From contig CP036432.1 of the NCBI GenBank assembly GCA_007753675.1, forward strand, positions 5,492,394 to 5,556,393: a stretch of 64,000 bases of DNA, given 5' to 3'. The notes beneath the pieces were generated by a model. It searched no databases, was not told where the DNA came from, and saw nothing but the letters and a program-made list of their open reading frames with translations. Of the stretch, positions 7,559-25,000 are shown one piece after another (positions within the stretch are counted from its first letter, which is position 1; each line of letters opens with the position of its first letter). This stretch comes from Stieleria magnilauensis (lineage in GTDB: Bacteria; Planctomycetota; Planctomycetia; Pirellulales; Pirellulaceae). Made by a program: the position numbers and the translations under genes.

Positions 7559-9913
7559 ATGCGTCTTAATTTACAAACCAAACTGACGATTTTCGTTGCG
7601 GTGGTCGTGTTTTTGACCGCCACGCTGGCCAATTTGACGAGTTTTCAATTCGCCAAAACCAGTCTGATCGGACAGATCCACCAGCGATTGCAGACCGCCG
7701 CGCACGATCGCCAGCAACGCATTCTCGCCTACGTCGATCAGCAGAAAGAACGGGCGCTGCTGGTCGCCAGCCGAACCCGCCTGCGGAGCTATCTCGCCGA
7801 ACGGATCGAGGGCACGGTCGGCGAAGCGAGGTTTCGCCAGGGCGTCCAGCGGATCCTGATCGACGCCAAATTGAGCACCCCGGAGTTCTTGTCCATCTCG
7901 ATCACCGACCCACAAGGCCAAGTGATCACGTCGACCGACGAAAGCCACCTTGGGAACAACTACTCCGATCATCCCGACTATTCACAAGGACGCATCGATG
8001 CCCATTTTGGGACTCCGTTTCAAAACGACGACGGCCAATACGTTGCCTGGATGACAGCGCCGGCAAAGACCAACGACGAGGAGTTTCTGGGAGTAGTGAT
8101 GGTGCTGCTGGACGTCGATGGCTTGATCCGGATCCTGCACGATTCCACCGGCCTGGGAGACTCCGGTGAAGTGCTGATTGCTGCGCAACAAGGCAACCGA
8201 CTGCACTACCTGATCCCTTCGGCAAAGCCGCACGACGACGCGTCAGAGAACCTCGAAACGGAGGCGATGAATCGAGCGATTGCTGGTGATTCGGGCCAAG
8301 AAGTGGGCCGCTATGCGGGAACCGACGTGCTGATCGCCTGGCGACCGATCACCTTGCAAGACCCCGAATTCCAAAAATGGGGCATGGTGGTGAAAATGGA
8401 TTGCGAGGAAGCGTTCGCGCCGATCGGCAAGCTGCGCAACATGCAATGGTTCCTGGAAGCCGCGCTGGTGTTGCTGAGCGTTCTGGGGGCGTTTGTCCTG
8501 GCCAGACGGTTCACGTCTCCGATTTCACGACTCGCCAAAACCGCAGACATGATTGCCGGGGGTGACCGCTATGCCCGAGTCGCGGTGGATTCGGATGACG
8601 AACTGGGACGACTGGGAACGTCCTTCAATCGCATGACCGACGAATTGGTGAGGGCTCAGGTGACGCTCGAAGATCGGGTCGAAGAACGGACGCGGGAGCT
8701 GGCCGAATCCAATCAATACTTACAGAAAGCGCGTGAAGAGGCCGATCAGGCGAATCGAGCCAAGAGCGAGTTTTTGGCCAACATGAGTCATGAGATTCGC
8801 ACCCCGATGAATGGGATCATCGGCATGTCGGACCTGTTGGACGGAACACCACTTTCATCGGAACAACGCGAATACCTGGGGATGGTTCGCGGGTCGGCCG
8901 ATTCGCTGCTGCGGCTGCTCAATGACATTCTGGATTTTTCCAAAATCGAAGCCGGCAAACTGGAATTGGAATCGATTGCGTTTGACCTGAGAGACACGGT
9001 GGAACGGACGGCCCGCTCGCTAGGTCATCACGCTGCAGACAAGGGACTGGAACTGGCCTGCCGCGTCGACCCGGACGCCCCACAAGTCATCGTCAGCGAT
9101 CCCGGACGGCTCCGTCAAATCATCGTCAACCTGGTCGGCAACGCGATGAAGTTCACCGAGGCCGGTGAGGTGGTCGTCGCCGTGGACCTGGAGGACCGCA
9201 GCGAAACGCATGCCCAACTGCACTTTTCGGTCCGCGACACGGGGATCGGCATCCCAAAGGAAAAACAAGACAGCATTTTCGAGTCGTTTTCACAAGTCGA
9301 CGCATCGACCACGCGTCAATACGGAGGCACCGGGTTGGGGCTCTCCATTTCGGGTCAACTGGTCTCCATGATGGACGGTCGGATCTGGGTGGAAAGCGAA
9401 CTGGGCCAAGGGATGACATTTCACTTCAATCTGAACTTGGAAATCGGGCAACCGCTGACGCCCTCTCCCCCGGCCGCGTTGGAAGATCTGGCAGGCCTGC
9501 CCGTGTTGGTCGTCGACGACAACCGAACCAATCGATTGATCTTCAACGAGATGCTTCAGTCCTGGGGGCTGGCCCCGACGTGTGTCGCCGATGGGCAGAC
9601 GGCGCTGGAGGAACTCGAACGCGCCGCCGCGGCCGATTCGCCCTACCAACTGGTGCTGCTTGATTGCGTGATGCCGAACATGGACGGCTACGATGTCGCC
9701 ACCAAGGCCCACGAGCCAGAACACCCCCGTTTCAAAGTCTTTACAAAAGTCGCAAGAACCAATAGTTTCAGCGTTTTCGCTACTTCAGCTTGCGACATGG
9801 ATCGAAAAGACCTTTCCAGAAGAACACGGAGGAACGAAATGCCAGCAAAACAAAAAAGGGGGACAGCGCGCCCACCACAGCAGCCCGGCGGCCGCAAACA
9901 ACATTGCGTCTGA
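7559..9913 (+). CDS. Hybrid sensor histidine kinase, 5' portion, interrupted in its first receiver domain
   Basis: Membrane sensor kinase. An N-terminal transmembrane helix is followed by a dCACHE-like periplasmic region (about 30-290), a second helix (about 300-320), HAMP (about 320-375), and HisKA with FLANMSHEIRTP (phospho-His about 411). The ATPase domain shows IVNLVGNAMKF, DTGIGIP and GTGLGLS. A receiver begins at VLVVDDN and contains the phospho-acceptor Asp in VLLDCVMPNMDG. At about codon 716 (9704-9706) the native frame is cut by the recombinase element. The frame then reads about 69 foreign residues to a stop at 9913, so the receiver lacks its C-terminal half. The rest of the gene (second half of REC1, REC2, HPt) lies at 12274-13320. 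The kinase core is intact and may still autophosphorylate, but phosphorelay output from this polypeptide is probably lost. Confidence 0.9.
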   Translation: MRLNLQTKLTIFVAVVVFLTATLANLTSFQFAKTSLIGQIHQRLQTAAHDRQQRILAYVDQQKERALLVASRTRLRSYLAERIEGTVGEARFRQGVQRILIDAKLSTPEFLSISITDPQGQVITSTDESHLGNNYSDHPDYSQGRIDAHFGTPFQNDDGQYVAWMTAPAKTNDEEFLGVVMVLLDVDGLIRILHDSTGLGDSGEVLIAAQQGNRLHYLIPSAKPHDDASENLETEAMNRAIAGDSGQEVGRYAGTDVLIAWRPITLQDPEFQKWGMVVKMDCEEAFAPIGKLRNMQWFLEAALVLLSVLGAFVLARRFTSPISRLAKTADMIAGGDRYARVAVDSDDELGRLGTSFNRMTDELVRAQVTLEDRVEERTRELAESNQYLQKAREEADQANRAKSEFLANMSHEIRTPMNGIIGMSDLLDGTPLSSEQREYLGMVRGSADSLLRLLNDILDFSKIEAGKLELESIAFDLRDTVERTARSLGHHAADKGLELACRVDPDAPQVIVSDPGRLRQIIVNLVGNAMKFTEAGEVVVAVDLEDRSETHAQLHFSVRDTGIGIPKEKQDSIFESFSQVDASTTRQYGGTGLGLSISGQLVSMMDGRIWVESELGQGMTFHFNLNLEIGQPLTPSPPAALEDLAGLPVLVVDDNRTNRLIFNEMLQSWGLAPTCVADGQTALEELERAAAADSPYQLVLLDCVMPNMDGYDVATKAHEPEHPRFKVFTKVARTNSFSVFATSACDMDRKDLSRRTRRNEMPAKQKRGTARPPQQPGGRKQHCV
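9701..9732 (+). other. Left attachment junction (attL) of the recombinase element
   Basis: Kinase sequence ends at the shared CAA (9703-9705). The inner arm cagaacacccccgttt lies at 9717-9732, 11 nt inside the AA at 9704-9705. Its reverse complement matches the arm at 12244-12259 at 12 of 16 positions, and all four mismatches are transitions. This is the expected layout for one half of a serine integrase attP site. Confidence 0.7.
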
Positions 9914-10035
9914 CGGAGCTTTGGGAAGCTCTTCCAGACGAACAGAAGAGAAAGGCAGCACGGGCACTCGTGCAAATCGTGGACAACGCGTTAGCGGCTC
10001 TACCGGAAAAGGAGGCCGATCATGAACGCGATTAA
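9790..10035 (+). CDS. Small basic protein encoded in the recombinase element, start uncertain
   Basis: The frame gives an 81-residue Lys/Arg-rich protein whose C-terminal half (LRLTELWEALPDEQ and following) looks helical and protein-like. It ends 14 nt inside the recombinase start, so the two are probably translationally coupled. The only in-frame initiators are TTG codons (9790 or 9904). The best ribosome-binding site (GGAGGA, 5 nt before an ATG at 9839) sits in the neighbouring frame, which reaches a stop at 9913. A -1 shift at the A6G5 run just after that ATG would join it to this frame. Function is unknown; an accessory factor such as a recombination directionality factor is possible but unsupported by any recognised motif. 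Confidence 0.45.
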   Translation: MRHGSKRPFQKNTEERNASKTKKGDSAPTTAARRPQTTLRLTELWEALPDEQKRKAARALVQIVDNALAALPEKEADHERD

Positions 10036-12202
10036 GACCACAGCAATTTGCGATTACAACGATGACAAGCAGAGTGTGTCGCTGCTTGGAAAGTTTTCTT
10101 CAAAGGTGCAAGATCGACATCTCTGCAAACTTGCAGTTGTCTACGTTCGACAGTCCACGCAGCGCCAAGTTGTCGAAAACCGGGAATCGCGTGAGCGTCA
10201 ATACGGCCTAGTTAATCGCGCCGAACAACTCGGGTGGGCTCAAGAGAGAATCCTCGTCATTGACGACGACCAAGGGATCAGTGGCAGCTCGGCGGATAAT
10301 CGACCTGGGTTTCAACGACTGATGACGGAAGTTTCCCTCAAGCATGTTGGAATCGTGTTGGGGCTGGAACTCAGTCGCCTATCGCGGTCTTGTAAAGACT
10401 GGCATCATCTCATCGAAGTCTGCGGGGTGTTTGGTGCGCTGCTTGGAGATGAAGACAGTATTTACGATCCTCTCGATTCAAACGATCGGCTCCTCCTGGG
10501 AATGAAGGGTGCGATGAGCGAGTTCGAATTGGTGACTATCAAGAACCGGCTGACACGTGGTGTGCAGAATAAAGCTGCGCGCGGCGAGCTGATTCTTTCA
10601 GTGCCAATCGGATACGTCAAATTGTCTGGTGGCGAAGTTGTGAAAGACCCTGATGAACAAGCTCGATCGATGGTTGAACTTGTTTTCGAGAAGTTTGAAG
10701 AAACGGGTTCGGCTTACGGCGTATTTCGATATCTTGCCGATAATCAATTAAAAATGGGATTTCGCCTCCACAAGGGGCCCCGTCGAGGCGAACTTGAGTT
10801 TCGTTTGCCAACATCAGCTCGCGTGCTCAACATTTTGAAGCACCCCATCTATGCCGGTGCCTATGGCTACGCAATGCGACGCAATTGCAAGATGCATCGG
10901 AACGTCGACAATCTCAATGAGAAGGGTTGGTTCTTATCGCCGGAAGACATGGGCGTCTGCCTCAGAGACAGAATGCCCGCGTATATCACGTGGGACCAAT
11001 ATCTCGCTAACCAAGCGAAGCTTCAAGAAAATCGTTCGACGCGGAAAAGCAAGGGAATTCCGAGGCGTGGGGACGCGTTGCTTGCTGGGTTGGTGAGATG
11101 CGGACGTTGTCACAGGCAAATGATCACGTCTTATAAGACCGATAAATTGCCGTCGTATTGCTGCGATGAGTTCGTGCGAAACCAGACTCTTGAAGGATAC
11201 TGTGGTCGCCTCGCTGCGAAGTGGATCGACGAGCTTGTTTCATCACAAGTGCTTCGAGCTGTTGCGCCCGCAGCGATCGAACTGAGCGAAGCAGCGACGA
11301 AAGAAATCGAAATCGAGAGACAACATCTACATCGACAGTGGAACTTGAAGATCGAACGCGCTCAGCAAGAATGCGATCGGGCAAGACGTCGATATGAAGC
11401 TGTCGAACCCGAGAATCGACTTGTCGCACGGACTTTGGAGTCAGACTGGGAGGCCCTACTGATCGACCTTCAAAACATTGAGGATGACTACGAGCGGTTC
11501 AAGTCGACTTCTCCAATTCAACTCAGCGATCAAGAGAAACTGCGGATCAAGTCTCTGTCATCATCTGTCCCTGAAGTCTGGAGGGCGGAAAGCACAACGA
11601 ACGAACATCGCAAAATCATCATTCGCTGTCTCGTCGATCAAGTCATCTTGACGATCGAGGATGGCACTGAAAATGTTGATGTAACCATTCTCTGGCAAGG
11701 TGGTTTTCGGAGTCAACATGCGATCTGCAAAGCGGTTGGATCATACTCACAACTAAGTGACTACGAACAGCTCTGCAAACGAATTGAGGAACTTCACCGG
11801 CAAGGGCTTCACCATCGAGAGATTGCAGCTCAACTTAATGAAGAAGGATTTCGCACAGCTCGCAGGCGCGGGAAGTTCACGACGCAAAATGTGGGAGACT
11901 TGATACGGCGTTTGAACCTACGTGGAGAATTGTTTCGCGATGGCATGCTCGGCAAAGATGAATGGTGGATTCCAGATCTGGCTGACAAGCTTGGCGTCAT
12001 TCAGCAGAAGGTCCACTACTGGGCCAGGCAAGGCTGGGTTCACTCGCGGCGGACGCCCACAGGGAAGCACTGGATTGTCTGGGCCGATCGAGAAGAACTG
12101 CGCAGACTTCGGAAACTCAAGAAGCTGCATGGGTCGTACATCGCCAAAAATCATCCAGTCTTGGTCACGCCGAAAGACCGACCGTCCGATCCTGATTCAT
12201 AA
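10022..12202 (+). CDS. Large serine recombinase (site-specific integrase)
   Basis: A 726-residue recombinase. The N-terminal resolvase/invertase catalytic domain starts at about residue 37, with YVRQS (nucleophile Ser45, Arg43), DDDQGISGS and the LELSRLSRS arginine motif. The 'Recombinase' domain follows (about 190-320, including PIYAGAYGYAM), then a zinc ribbon beginning with CGRCHRQM (about 360), and a charged coiled coil (about 420-490). The C-terminus adds two helix-turn-helix-like modules, one around HHREIAAQLNEEGF and a MerR-like one around WWIPDLADKLGV. It catalyses recombination between attP and attB through a 5' phosphoserine intermediate. It is the only sizeable gene in an element that interrupts a histidine kinase gene. 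All key catalytic residues are visible, so it is probably active. Confidence 0.95.
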   Translation: MNAIKTTAICDYNDDKQSVSLLGKFSSKVQDRHLCKLAVVYVRQSTQRQVVENRESRERQYGLVNRAEQLGWAQERILVIDDDQGISGSSADNRPGFQRLMTEVSLKHVGIVLGLELSRLSRSCKDWHHLIEVCGVFGALLGDEDSIYDPLDSNDRLLLGMKGAMSEFELVTIKNRLTRGVQNKAARGELILSVPIGYVKLSGGEVVKDPDEQARSMVELVFEKFEETGSAYGVFRYLADNQLKMGFRLHKGPRRGELEFRLPTSARVLNILKHPIYAGAYGYAMRRNCKMHRNVDNLNEKGWFLSPEDMGVCLRDRMPAYITWDQYLANQAKLQENRSTRKSKGIPRRGDALLAGLVRCGRCHRQMITSYKTDKLPSYCCDEFVRNQTLEGYCGRLAAKWIDELVSSQVLRAVAPAAIELSEAATKEIEIERQHLHRQWNLKIERAQQECDRARRRYEAVEPENRLVARTLESDWEALLIDLQNIEDDYERFKSTSPIQLSDQEKLRIKSLSSSVPEVWRAESTTNEHRKIIIRCLVDQVILTIEDGTENVDVTILWQGGFRSQHAICKAVGSYSQLSDYEQLCKRIEELHRQGLHHREIAAQLNEEGFRTARRRGKFTTQNVGDLIRRLNLRGELFRDGMLGKDEWWIPDLADKLGVIQQKVHYWARQGWVHSRRTPTGKHWIVWADREELRRLRKLKKLHGSYIAKNHPVLVTPKDRPSDPDS

Positions 12203-12243
12203 GCACTTCGAATTCATTCTCGCCAACTTCTTTTATGGAACCA

Positions 12244-12273
12244 AAACAGGGATATCCTGATGTCTGAATCAAA
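12244..12273 (+). other. Right attachment junction (attR) of the recombinase element
   Basis: The inner arm aaacagggatatcctg lies at 12244-12259, followed by 11 nt and the AA of the shared CAA (12270-12272). Kinase coding sequence resumes at 12273. Joined in circular form with the left junction, the two arms are spaced symmetrically (11 nt, AA, 11 nt), so AA is the likely crossover dinucleotide. Confidence 0.7.
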
Positions 12274-13320
12274 ATGCTGGAAAACGATCAGCTGCGACAC
12301 ACCAAAACCATCATTATCTCCTCGGCGACCAGCGAAGACAAACAACGGTGCAGCGACCTAGGCGTGGCCAGTTATGTGACCAAACCCGTCGTGCAATCGG
12401 AGTTTCTCGAGACGATCCTCAACGCCATGGTATCGCCCGATGACATTGTGGACATCGATCCACCCAACGATGTCGAGCAGCCCGATGTGGCGTTGCGTGT
12501 ATTGATGGTCGAAGACGGTTATGTGAACCAGCGTGTGGCCAGCGGGTTGCTGGAACGCATGGGACACCAAGTCCAAGTCGCCGGTGACGGAAAACTCGGC
12601 GTCGAGGCCTGGCGAGACGGCCAGTTTGACGTGATCTTGATGGACTGGCAGATGCCCGTCATGGATGGGCGAGAAGCGACCCAACAAATTCGTCGCGAAG
12701 AAGCGTCCACGGGAAATCACATTCCCATCATCGCGATGACCGCCGCGGCCATGAAAGGGGATCGCGAACGATGCCTGGAAGCCGGCATGGACGATTACAT
12801 CAGCAAACCCATTGACCCCAAGGAATTGGCCATGGTCCTACGGCGACACGCCCCCGACGATTCCCCCGCCGCCACGGAGGCGTCGAAAGAGGCGTCCACG
12901 GATGATGCAACCGTCCAGCCCAACGCGGAGGCAGACGGGGAAGTCACACCCGATCCACAACCCGACTACGAGGTCATCGATATCGAACACGCCCGCAATC
13001 GAATGCGAGGCTGCAACGACGCGTTCTTGACGGAAATCGCGAAAGTCTTACGCGAAGAGGCGGCGCAGCGTGTCAAGGAAATCGAAGACGCGCTGGCGGC
13101 CAGCGACGTCAAAGTCGTCACCCGAGGCGCGCACACGCTCAAAGGCGCCGCGGCAAATTTTGGCGCCAAACCCGTCGTCGAACTCGCCGAGCAAATCGAA
13201 CGACTCGGTAAAGCCGACGACTTGGCTCCCGTCCCCGATCTCCTCGAATCTCTCAAACAGCAAGTCGCCCGGCTCGACGTCGAACTCGAAGCCTTCGTGA
13301 ACCGGCAAATCGATCCGTAG
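12274..13320 (+). CDS. Hybrid histidine kinase, 3' portion: half receiver, receiver and HPt domain
   Basis: This continues the kinase gene that begins at 7559. The first 50 residues are the C-terminal half of REC1 (IIISSATSEDKQRC, then VTKPV, where the conserved Lys-Pro sits). REC2 follows with VLMVEDG, phospho-acceptor Asp in ILMDWQMPVMDG and Lys-Pro in YISKPIDP. An acidic linker leads to an HPt domain with AHTLKGAAANFG (phospho-His in HTLKG). The in-frame ATG at 12274 coincides with a native internal Met codon and has no clear ribosome-binding site, so it may not be translated while the element is present. If expressed, it would be a receiver-HPt relay protein detached from its kinase. Confidence 0.82.
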   Translation: MLENDQLRHTKTIIISSATSEDKQRCSDLGVASYVTKPVVQSEFLETILNAMVSPDDIVDIDPPNDVEQPDVALRVLMVEDGYVNQRVASGLLERMGHQVQVAGDGKLGVEAWRDGQFDVILMDWQMPVMDGREATQQIRREEASTGNHIPIIAMTAAAMKGDRERCLEAGMDDYISKPIDPKELAMVLRRHAPDDSPAATEASKEASTDDATVQPNAEADGEVTPDPQPDYEVIDIEHARNRMRGCNDAFLTEIAKVLREEAAQRVKEIEDALAASDVKVVTRGAHTLKGAAANFGAKPVVELAEQIERLGKADDLAPVPDLLESLKQQVARLDVELEAFVNRQIDP

Positions 13321-22093: not shown

Positions 22094-25000
22094 ATGGGTT
22101 CCAATCGTCAATTCACCTTTCGCCCCGTCGGCGAATCATTGGAACAGCGGCGTTTGCTCGCGGCGATCGAATTGCCAGCGGTTGAAATGCACTCGGAACT
22201 CTCCGGCGACGTGGCCGTCGCCCAGGTCAGCGAATCGACAGTCTCCACGCAATCCGTCGCGGCGGCCGCGGCGACGGGGATCGTGGCTCGGCATCGCATG
22301 ACGTCGACGCAGTACAACGCCGAAGTCGCACGCCTGCAGGACCTCGGATATCGCCCCTTCCACGTCTCCGGGTATGAAATTGCCGGCCAAGACTACTACG
22401 CGGCGATCTGGAAGCCCACTGGCAGCACCGCCTGGCAAGCACGCCACGGCATGACGTCGTCCCAATACCAGCAGGAATTCACAGCCCTGGTCGGCCAAGG
22501 CTATCGACTGACCCACGTCAACGGTTACACGATCGGCGGGATCGATCGCTATGCCGCGATTTGGGAAAAATCGTCCGGGCCCGGATTTTACGCCCGTCAC
22601 AGGATGACCGGTTCACAACTGCAAAACTTTGACAACGATTACACCAGCCAGGGCTATCGAATCACAAAACTCAGCGGCTACGCAATCGGCAGCCAAAGCT
22701 ACTACGCCGCGATTTGGCAGAAACAATCGGGGCCGGCCTACGTGTGGCGTTATGGTTTGACGTCCGCCGAATTTCAAGAACAGTCCGGCCAGTTCGCCGC
22801 ATCAGGCTATGACGTCGTTGATGTCAGTGGCTACAGCGTCGGAGGTGTCGATTACTACGCGGGGATCTGGGAACAGCAATCGACAACCAGCGGCGTGCTC
22901 CGCCACGCCTTGAGTTCATCCCAGTATCAATCCGAATTTGACGCGTTGTTGGCGCAAGGTTACGAACTCCGTCAGGTGGATGGCTACACGGTCGGAGGCA
23001 TCGACCGCTACGTGGCCAGTTGGACCAAGCCCGCCCAAGCGTTCACGGAGTTGCCGATTTCCGGCACGATGCTTCCGCAACTCTCGGCGCTGACGGAGAC
23101 CGTCGAGCAATTCATGATCGAGCGACAGATACCGGCCGGGTCGATTGCGATCAGCAAAGACGGCCAATTGCTCGGTGAGATCGGCTTGGGTTGGAGCGAT
23201 CACGATCAAACCGAAGCGATCGATCCGGATGCGATGTTTCGATTGGCAAGCGTGACGAAGCCGATGACCGACGCGGTGGTCACCAAATTGATCTCCGAAA
23301 GCGTGCTCAGTTTAGACGATCAAGTCTTTTGCGCTGCGGGGGCGAGCGATGACTGTCTACTAGACATCACGCCATGGGGCACGCCCGATGCCCGACTCTC
23401 CCAAATCAACGTAGGGCATCTGCTCGAGCATCGCGGCGGCTGGGACCGCGATCTTTCGGGAGACCCGGTGTTCAATCAAATCGCGATCGCCGGTGCGTTG
23501 GGGATCAGTTCGCCTCCCAATCAATATCAGATCGCACAGTACGTGCTCGGGCAGCCGTTGGATTTTGATCCGGGCACGCGCTACGCCTACTCCAACTTCG
23601 GCTACATGATCCTGGGGCTGGTGGTCGAAAACAAAACGGGACGCGACTTCACGGAGTATTTGCAGAACGAGATCTTTCGACCGATCGGAGTTGCGAACAC
23701 GGAGATTGAACTGGGTCGTAGTCTGCCGGATGACCGCAACGCTCGCGAGCCGAACTATCGCCATCCGTCACTGGGGACCAGCGTGTTTGACACGTCTCAG
23801 CTCGTTGCCTTTCCCGACGGAGCGTTCCATCTGGAATCGATGGAATCCTTTGGAGGCCAGATCGCCTCGGCGCGGGCGGTCACAAGCTTTCTGGATCGAT
23901 ACTGGATCAGCGGAGAACGACGCAGCGGCGGAAGTGCAAACTACACGTTCTATGGTTCCTTACCGGGCACCGTGACGATGGCGCGGCAACGGCTCGACGG
24001 ATTTAACGTCGTCGTCTTGCTGAACCAAAGGACGGATGCAGCGGGAAACACCTATGACGTCAACGTGTTGAAAAGCCGAGTCGATGCGGTGCTGGACACG
24101 GTGGACGTCTCGATCACGACGCAAGACACGATCGGACTTTATCAAGGCGACACGTCGTTGTTCCACCTGAAAGAATCGTTCGGCGCGGGGCCGTCGGATC
24201 AGTACTTCGCGTTCGGTCCGAGCGGAAACGCCGGCTGGACGCCGCTGGTCGGCGACTGGAATGGTGACGGAACCGACACCATCGGACTGTACCAGGGCGA
24301 TGCGTCGCTGTTCCATCTAAAGGATTCGTTCTCGCCCGGAGCTGCCGACCACTACTTCGCATTCGGTCCCGCAGGTACGGGCTGGATTCCGCTGGCCGGA
24401 GACTGGAACGGGGACGGCATCGATACCATCGGACTCTACCAACCCGACGTGTCGCTGTTCCACCTCAAGGATTCGACCACACCGGGAGCCTCCGACCATT
24501 ACTTCGCGTTCGGTCCCGGCGGCAATGCGGGCTGGACACCCGTGGTCGGCGACTGGGATGGCGATGGCAAAGACACCATCGGGCTCTACCAACCCGATGC
24601 GTCACTGTTTCATCTCAAGAATTCGTTCACCGCCGGAGCATCGGATCAGTACTTCGCCTTCGGCCCGGGTGGAAACGCCGGCTGGACTCCGATGACGGGG
24701 GATTGGAATGGCGACGGCACCGACACGATCGGACTGTACCAACCGGACGTCTCTCTGTTTCACCTCAAAGATTCGTTCACCCCCGGCGCCGCCGATCACT
24801 ACTTTGCGTTCGGGCCCAGTGGAAACGCCGGCTGGATTCCGCTGGCCGGTGATTGGAACGGCCCGACCATCTCCGCCAGCTCAACGGCCGCTGTTGCAGC
24901 GAATTTCGTTTCGGCGGCTTCGATGCCGGCGGCGAAGGCATCACCGACCGATTCATCCGACCCGACTGAAGAACTTACCGCGTCTGAATTGTCAACGCGG

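Follow-up and report, generated by a model that had tools for sequence, protein, structure and literature searches.

A minimal serine recombinase element in a hybrid histidine kinase gene of Stieleria magnilauensis, probably an off-target insertion of a parasite of transposons

We analysed a 64,000-bp stretch of the Stieleria magnilauensis genome (GenBank assembly GCA_007753675.1, contig CP036432.1, positions 5,492,394 to 5,556,393; hereafter the window), in which a hybrid histidine kinase gene is interrupted by a 2567-bp mobile element encoding a large serine recombinase. Very probably, the element is a minimal one whose recombinase belongs to a clade directed at conserved codons in other transposons, and the kinase gene represents an ectopic landing. 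The other copies of the element and many of its relatives lie inside transposase genes, which argues for a transposon parasite that landed off target and not for a kinase switch. The features of the interrupted locus, numbered from the first base of the window, are as follows.

7559..9705, + strand: 5′ part of the kinase gene (dCache, HAMP, HisKA, HATPase_c, first part of REC1); the open reading frame (ORF) reads on inside the element as far as 9913
9704..9705: AA at the left junction (attL), one of the two copies of the 2-bp crossover core, defined by comparison of genomic copies
9706..12272, + strand: mobile element, 2567 bp; four genomic copies, with one single-nucleotide polymorphism between the window copy and the others
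9790..10035, + strand: small frame ahead of the recombinase gene, whose start it overlaps; relatives have similar sequence; putative start
10022..12202, + strand: large serine recombinase, 726 amino acids (aa), with Resolvase, Recombinase and zinc-ribbon domains
10588, + strand: single difference found from the other copies, G in the window and A elsewhere, silent by codon reading
12271..12272: AA at the right junction (attR), the other copy of the core, defined by comparison of genomic copies
12273..13320, + strand: 3′ part of the kinase gene (remainder of REC1, then REC2 and Hpt), with a 348-aa frame starting at the ATG at 12274

A DNA search of the source genome (a single 10.77-Mb contig) revealed four near-identical copies of the element, one of them in two pieces. 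Besides the window copy, the 2569-bp stretch (both cores counted) recurs three more times, in one case divided by a further insert. Copies A and B are identical, each differing from the window copy at one base, and copy C equals copy A exactly over both pieces. All three interrupt an IS66-type tnpB gene, in the same orientation as the gene and at the lysine codon of its W-S-K-R-L-E motif. Copy C (L017, C1:2865000-2882500) is broken at a site matching window positions 10157-10166 by an insert of 4281 bp with a 10-bp repeat, in which frames for a DDE-type transposase and for IS66-like tnpB and tnpC were named by reading. With a joined tnpB as the query, the source genome yielded three copies of each half but no intact copy of this IS66 subfamily. 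A second IS66 type is represented by six equal-scoring uninterrupted tnpB copies (e.g. C1:373202-373498), one of which lies inside the copy C insert, and one weaker TnpB fragment was also matched. Among five relatives tested for the interrupted IS66 site, three sister genomes (L166, L167 and L168) carry it empty and gapless; it is also empty in a 71% relative (L170), with gaps elsewhere in the alignment, while the fifth (L169) gave no match to the site. Elements included, IS66 A and B share 99.88% identity over 5758 bp. The backbones of IS66 A and C show 149 mismatches outside the element (29 + 120, in two blocks), whereas the elements themselves do not differ. Identical elements within diverged backbones indicate that those in A and C would have entered or been copied in separately, or been homogenized by gene conversion.

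The kinase locus was compared with 60 related genomes; the genus is represented by 14 genomes, including the source. Almost the whole pre-insertion kinase was matched in five of the 60, all of the same genus, with DNA identities of 94, 93, 90, 76 and 76%. These full-length orthologues (L049-L053; 1058-1066 residues, 76-95% aa identity) are all uninterrupted and gapless at the junction, the alignment of L053 containing a one-base shift upstream of it. One further match (L055, 66%) is partial, being cut by the end of its contig, and lies outside the comparison. The DNA of the element was found in none of the 13 other genus genomes, that is, in one of 14 in total, although distant relatives of the recombinase are present within the genus (e.g. 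G003, at 43%). Because the orthologues are intact and gapless and only one of the 14 genus genomes holds the element, the insertion into the kinase gene appears precise and, most simply, recent. Profile searches placed cache, HAMP, HisKA and HATPase_c domains before the element, together with positions 1-73 of the 111-position REC1 profile, and a complete second REC domain and Hpt after it. The predicted outcome would be a truncated sensor kinase with element-encoded C-terminal residues, and translation from the ATG at 12274 might yield a separate REC-Hpt protein; the kinase is presumably inactive.

These data bear out the initial annotation, made from the letters of the window, in its description of a minimal serine-integrase element precisely interrupting a hybrid histidine kinase: the domains are split, a recombinase ORF lies between them, and the same stretch is multicopy. 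In silico removal of 9706-12272 leaves, as it had predicted, a single open frame of 1064 aa. The five uninterrupted orthologues show the native junction that it had foreseen, so the sister genomes do not hold the different junction sequence that it had named as evidence against itself. The trinucleotide CAA, which it had reported as shared, is indeed present at both kinase junctions. However, only AA is shared by the two junctions at all targets; CAA as the crossover core was therefore reduced to a 2-bp AA, with the C incidental. AA stands at both junctions in four of four copies, in keeping with the short attL/attR core of large serine recombinases.

The kinase and IS66 sites were compared against a background of 11691 AA sites from the window and three further loci of the source genome. 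The two sites agree at 16 of 36 positions around AA, and 108 of the 11691 sites match as well. Agreement in the left half is 9 of 18 (207 sites as good); the kinase site also agrees with the right half of the site in the relative L074 at 9 of 18 positions (360 sites as good), and the kinase and IS66 sites both read K-x-L-E. This resemblance suggests that the kinase insertion is an ectopic landing.

The recombinase passes the Pfam cut-offs for all three of the Resolvase, Recombinase and zinc-ribbon domains, with Resolvase N-terminal to Recombinase. Large serine recombinases carry their catalytic serine in a YxRxS-type motif; here the motif reads VYVRQS, and S45, invariant across five aligned sequences, is the candidate catalytic residue. 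Assignment to XisF, which excises the fdxN element, was rejected on a score of 95.2 bits against the curated 375 bits of NCBIfam NF041201, and assignment to the SCC cassette recombinases CcrA/B/C on scores of 46.5-56.1 bits against curated values of 700-900. IS607-type serine transposases are described as having an inverted domain order (PMC4058570); the Resolvase domain of the present protein occupies residues 38-189 and precedes the Recombinase domain, and membership of that group was likewise rejected. DUF4368 was not among the Pfam matches of the recombinase, which is not decisive since only 63% of the multi-targeting DUF4368 clade are reported to carry the domain (PMC10083194).

Relatives of the recombinase were taken as the best 80 of 200 loci from a scan of genome contigs; 561 plasmid records also held a recombinase match. 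Besides the window sequence, the tree included 72 of these 80 loci (L093, L095, L096, L098, L110, L116, L122 and L136 were left out). The window sequence forms one clade with L074, L075, L076 and L077 (SH-aLRT 100). Within this clade, L074 (Bythopirellula, 86% identity) has tnpB after the element at the same lysine codon, its contig beginning inside the element. In L077 (Nitrospiraceae) tblastn identified tnpB before the element, and reading shows that tnpB resumes after it, with tnpC farther on. In L075 tnpB was recognised on the left side, before the element. In two Azospirillum loci (L148 and L149) tnpB adjoins the element up to residue 66, on the opposite strand. Family members occur in Planctomycetota, Cyanobacteriota, Pseudomonadota, Actinomycetota and Chloroflexota. 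The closely related recombinases of L084 and L085 share a region that extends about 570 bases past the recombinase match, which suggests that their elements may be larger, with extra genes.

For the wider family, one flank segment per locus was searched at 40 loci with Pfam and then NCBIfam. A regular expression for element ends gave few clear matches across loci and served only for reading. Pfam detected a transposase domain in 22 of the 40 flanks, and NCBIfam added L094, L100 and L107 (25 of 40). With L131 and L147 subtracted, 23 of the 40 loci have a broken DDE transposase; L151 and L152, from outside the 40, bring the broken-DDE loci to 25. Of these, 21 fall in seven NCBIfam models, and within each model the break positions agree within four profile positions, as listed here.

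NF033591: break at 238 and 238; in each of two further loci the opposite half begins at 235
NF033592: break at 292, 291 and 291
NF033590: break at 282 and 283
NF049999: break at 322, 321, 321 and 321
NF033564: break at 278, 278 and 277
NF033580: break at 222, 226 and 224
NF033545: break at 268 and 270

L086, L116, L143 and L151 are each the sole locus in their model. The Pfam DDE_Tnp_1 match ends at positions 162-170 of 200 in 13 of 17 loci, and earlier in L112, L117, L143 and L145. Reading of the junctions places an acidic codon at the break, which we take to be that of the third catalytic acid of DDE transposases; it lies in the first half in 23 of the 25 loci and in the second half in L112, L143 being ambiguous. 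Both transposase halves are readable in 11 of the 25 (L087, L088, L092, L094, L100, L102, L107, L109, L116, L119 and L125). The element occurs in both orientations relative to the transposase, and the broken-transposase loci are spread over the recombinase tree. As a control, 12 of 20 prepared loci with distant serine recombinases were scanned, eight with both libraries and two with each alone; no transposase was found in any of the 12, each represented by one flank segment with undefined element ends. In Leptolyngbya sp. PCC 7375 (G060) a joined transposase query matched 11 first and 11 second halves, about 2.5 kb apart, and no intact copy; the content between the halves is known for only some pairs.

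Upstream of the recombinase gene, sequence similar to the small frame was detected in 19 of 89 loci searched (tblastn, E of 0.01 or less, mostly weak matches) and is 70% identical in L074. A 24-codon frame (9839-9913), whose ATG is preceded by GGAGG, overlaps the conserved small frame; the overlap contains an A6G5 run (9852-9862), and a -1 frameshift there would join the two. The relatives have two overlapping conserved segments upstream of their recombinases, for which picking the longest frame gives mixed frames. By eye, a second short segment (L-L-x-L-V-x-W type) lies farther upstream in many of them (e.g. L115, L117, L123, L125 and L152). Serine integrases join element ends and integrate across a short core by established chemistry. 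In phage systems of this type the excisive reaction is reported to require a phage-encoded factor (PMC3783163), and the short upstream frame could be a candidate directionality factor. Elsewhere in the window, positions 24125-24862 consist of about five tandem copies of a 150-bp unit with 76% matches.

In the mechanism that we propose, the element's own large serine recombinase would recombine the element ends, once joined, with a short target, crossing over at the 2-bp AA core. The copies, their exact junctions, the empty sites of sister genomes and the transposase breakpoints are read directly from sequence; we infer that the recombinase is the agent and that the target is recognised as DNA sequence. 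The clade of the window element would target one tnpB codon of IS66-type transposons, and the wider family a stretch around the third catalytic acid of DDE transposases. All three copies found of one IS66 subfamily are occupied in this genome, and one copy of the element would recently have entered a somewhat similar sequence in the kinase gene, a site presumably used owing to its likeness to the IS66 site.

The initial annotation had proposed a reversible phosphorelay switch. In such a switch, conditional excision would restore the 1064-residue kinase, much as in the skin and fdxN elements, where a serine recombinase element interrupts a gene that its excision restores in differentiating cells. 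The precise in-frame junction, the position of the element on the kinase strand and the conserved small upstream frame as a possible directionality factor would fit such a switch; however, precise restorability is expected of any serine-integrase insertion. The element is not kept in the genus, as its detection by DNA search in a single one of 14 genomes and the five intact orthologues show, it is multicopy with the other copies in transposons, 23 of 40 relatives sit in broken DDE transposases, and the XisF score falls far below the curated value. We consider the switch unsupported and very improbable. Just as improbable is a serine transposon with random targets, for which the transposase matches merely reflect the abundance of transposons. 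The kinase insertion itself would agree with it, as would the 15 of 40 relatives, e.g. L141 (LysR) and L129 (FG-GAP), whose tested segment showed no transposase, whereas the constant break position within each of seven transposase models and the use of the same IS66 codon in three of the element's own copies and in L074 and L077 speak against it. A passenger history, in which the three IS66 copies arose by IS66 transposition while already carrying the element and the recombinase made a new insertion in the kinase gene only, is a possibility of some substance, though we think it the less likely course of events. It draws on the near-identity of IS66 A and B, on the occupation of every copy found of the subfamily and on the Leptolyngbya halves, and is opposed by the 149 mismatches between IS66 A and C around identical elements. 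For A and B it can be combined with the targeting of transposons by the recombinase.

Several observations weigh against the targeting of transposons with an ectopic landing in the kinase. Gene conversion could account for the identical elements in IS66 A and C. The resemblance between the kinase and IS66 sites is modest and was measured after the fact, and its right half (7 of 18, with 1716 of 11691 sites as good) is unremarkable. Within the closest clade, the left flank of L076 is another gene region, in which tblastn found no tnpB, and on its right side the likeness to the tnpB of L077 is confined to 39 bp. Only one transposase half was recognised in 14 of the 25 broken loci, the tested segment of 15 of the 40 relatives held no transposase, and L131 and L147 have an adjoining transposase not shown to be broken. 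The profile break positions stand without an intact-transposase control for match ends, and the control loci were compared without known element ends. Finally, the element is known from sequence alone, without observed movement, circle or excision. A bolder version of the targeting hypothesis, which we regard as improbable, would have a bacteria-wide clade homing into transposase catalytic codons, where excision turns the host transposon on; guest and host would form a reversible pair, with the kinase as an accidental second gate. Since all three IS66 copies found and the Leptolyngbya copies are interrupted, the host transposon would still spread with its guest aboard.

Comparable habits are described for other mobile elements. 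The natural target of the group II intron RmInt1 of Sinorhizobium meliloti lies in the multicopy insertion sequence (IS) ISRm2011-2 of the IS630 family; its insertion is said to block spread of the IS, and an ectopic insertion in oxi1 is reported at a similar target sequence (PMC5894124). The present element likewise has a target inside another mobile element and a probable ectopic landing in a gene with a somewhat similar site, whereas RmInt1 is described as a retrohoming ribozyme with a reverse transcriptase, its target being read mainly by RNA pairing. Among helper-embedded PICI satellites, an integrase clade is reported to target prophage late genes repeatedly, the interrupted gene being expressed after satellite excision (PMC10111431). 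The repeated targeting of genes of another mobile element is shared, but the satellites are described with many genes, prophage hosts and observed excision, in contrast to the element described here. A catalogue of large serine recombinases, the superfamily to which the present enzyme belongs, defines site-specific and multi-targeting clades by their disrupted target genes (Durrant et al. 2022, PMC10083194); transposase targets are not mentioned in main-text passages of that work, and its supplements may hold some. A serine-recombinase clade targeting transposase genes was not found among the leading matches, judged by title and opening of the abstract, in the open-licence literature; subscription papers and preprints lie outside this, and a report may exist.

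The tempting account of a kinase switch is thus left unsupported, and what emerges is a family with a striking target habit that merits systematic study. Serine recombinases serve as genome-insertion tools, and the evolution of their target choice is an open question. A family found at one conserved place in several transposase families may offer natural recombinase-target pairs for retargeting studies, and hints at a check on insertion sequences like the one provided by group II introns.
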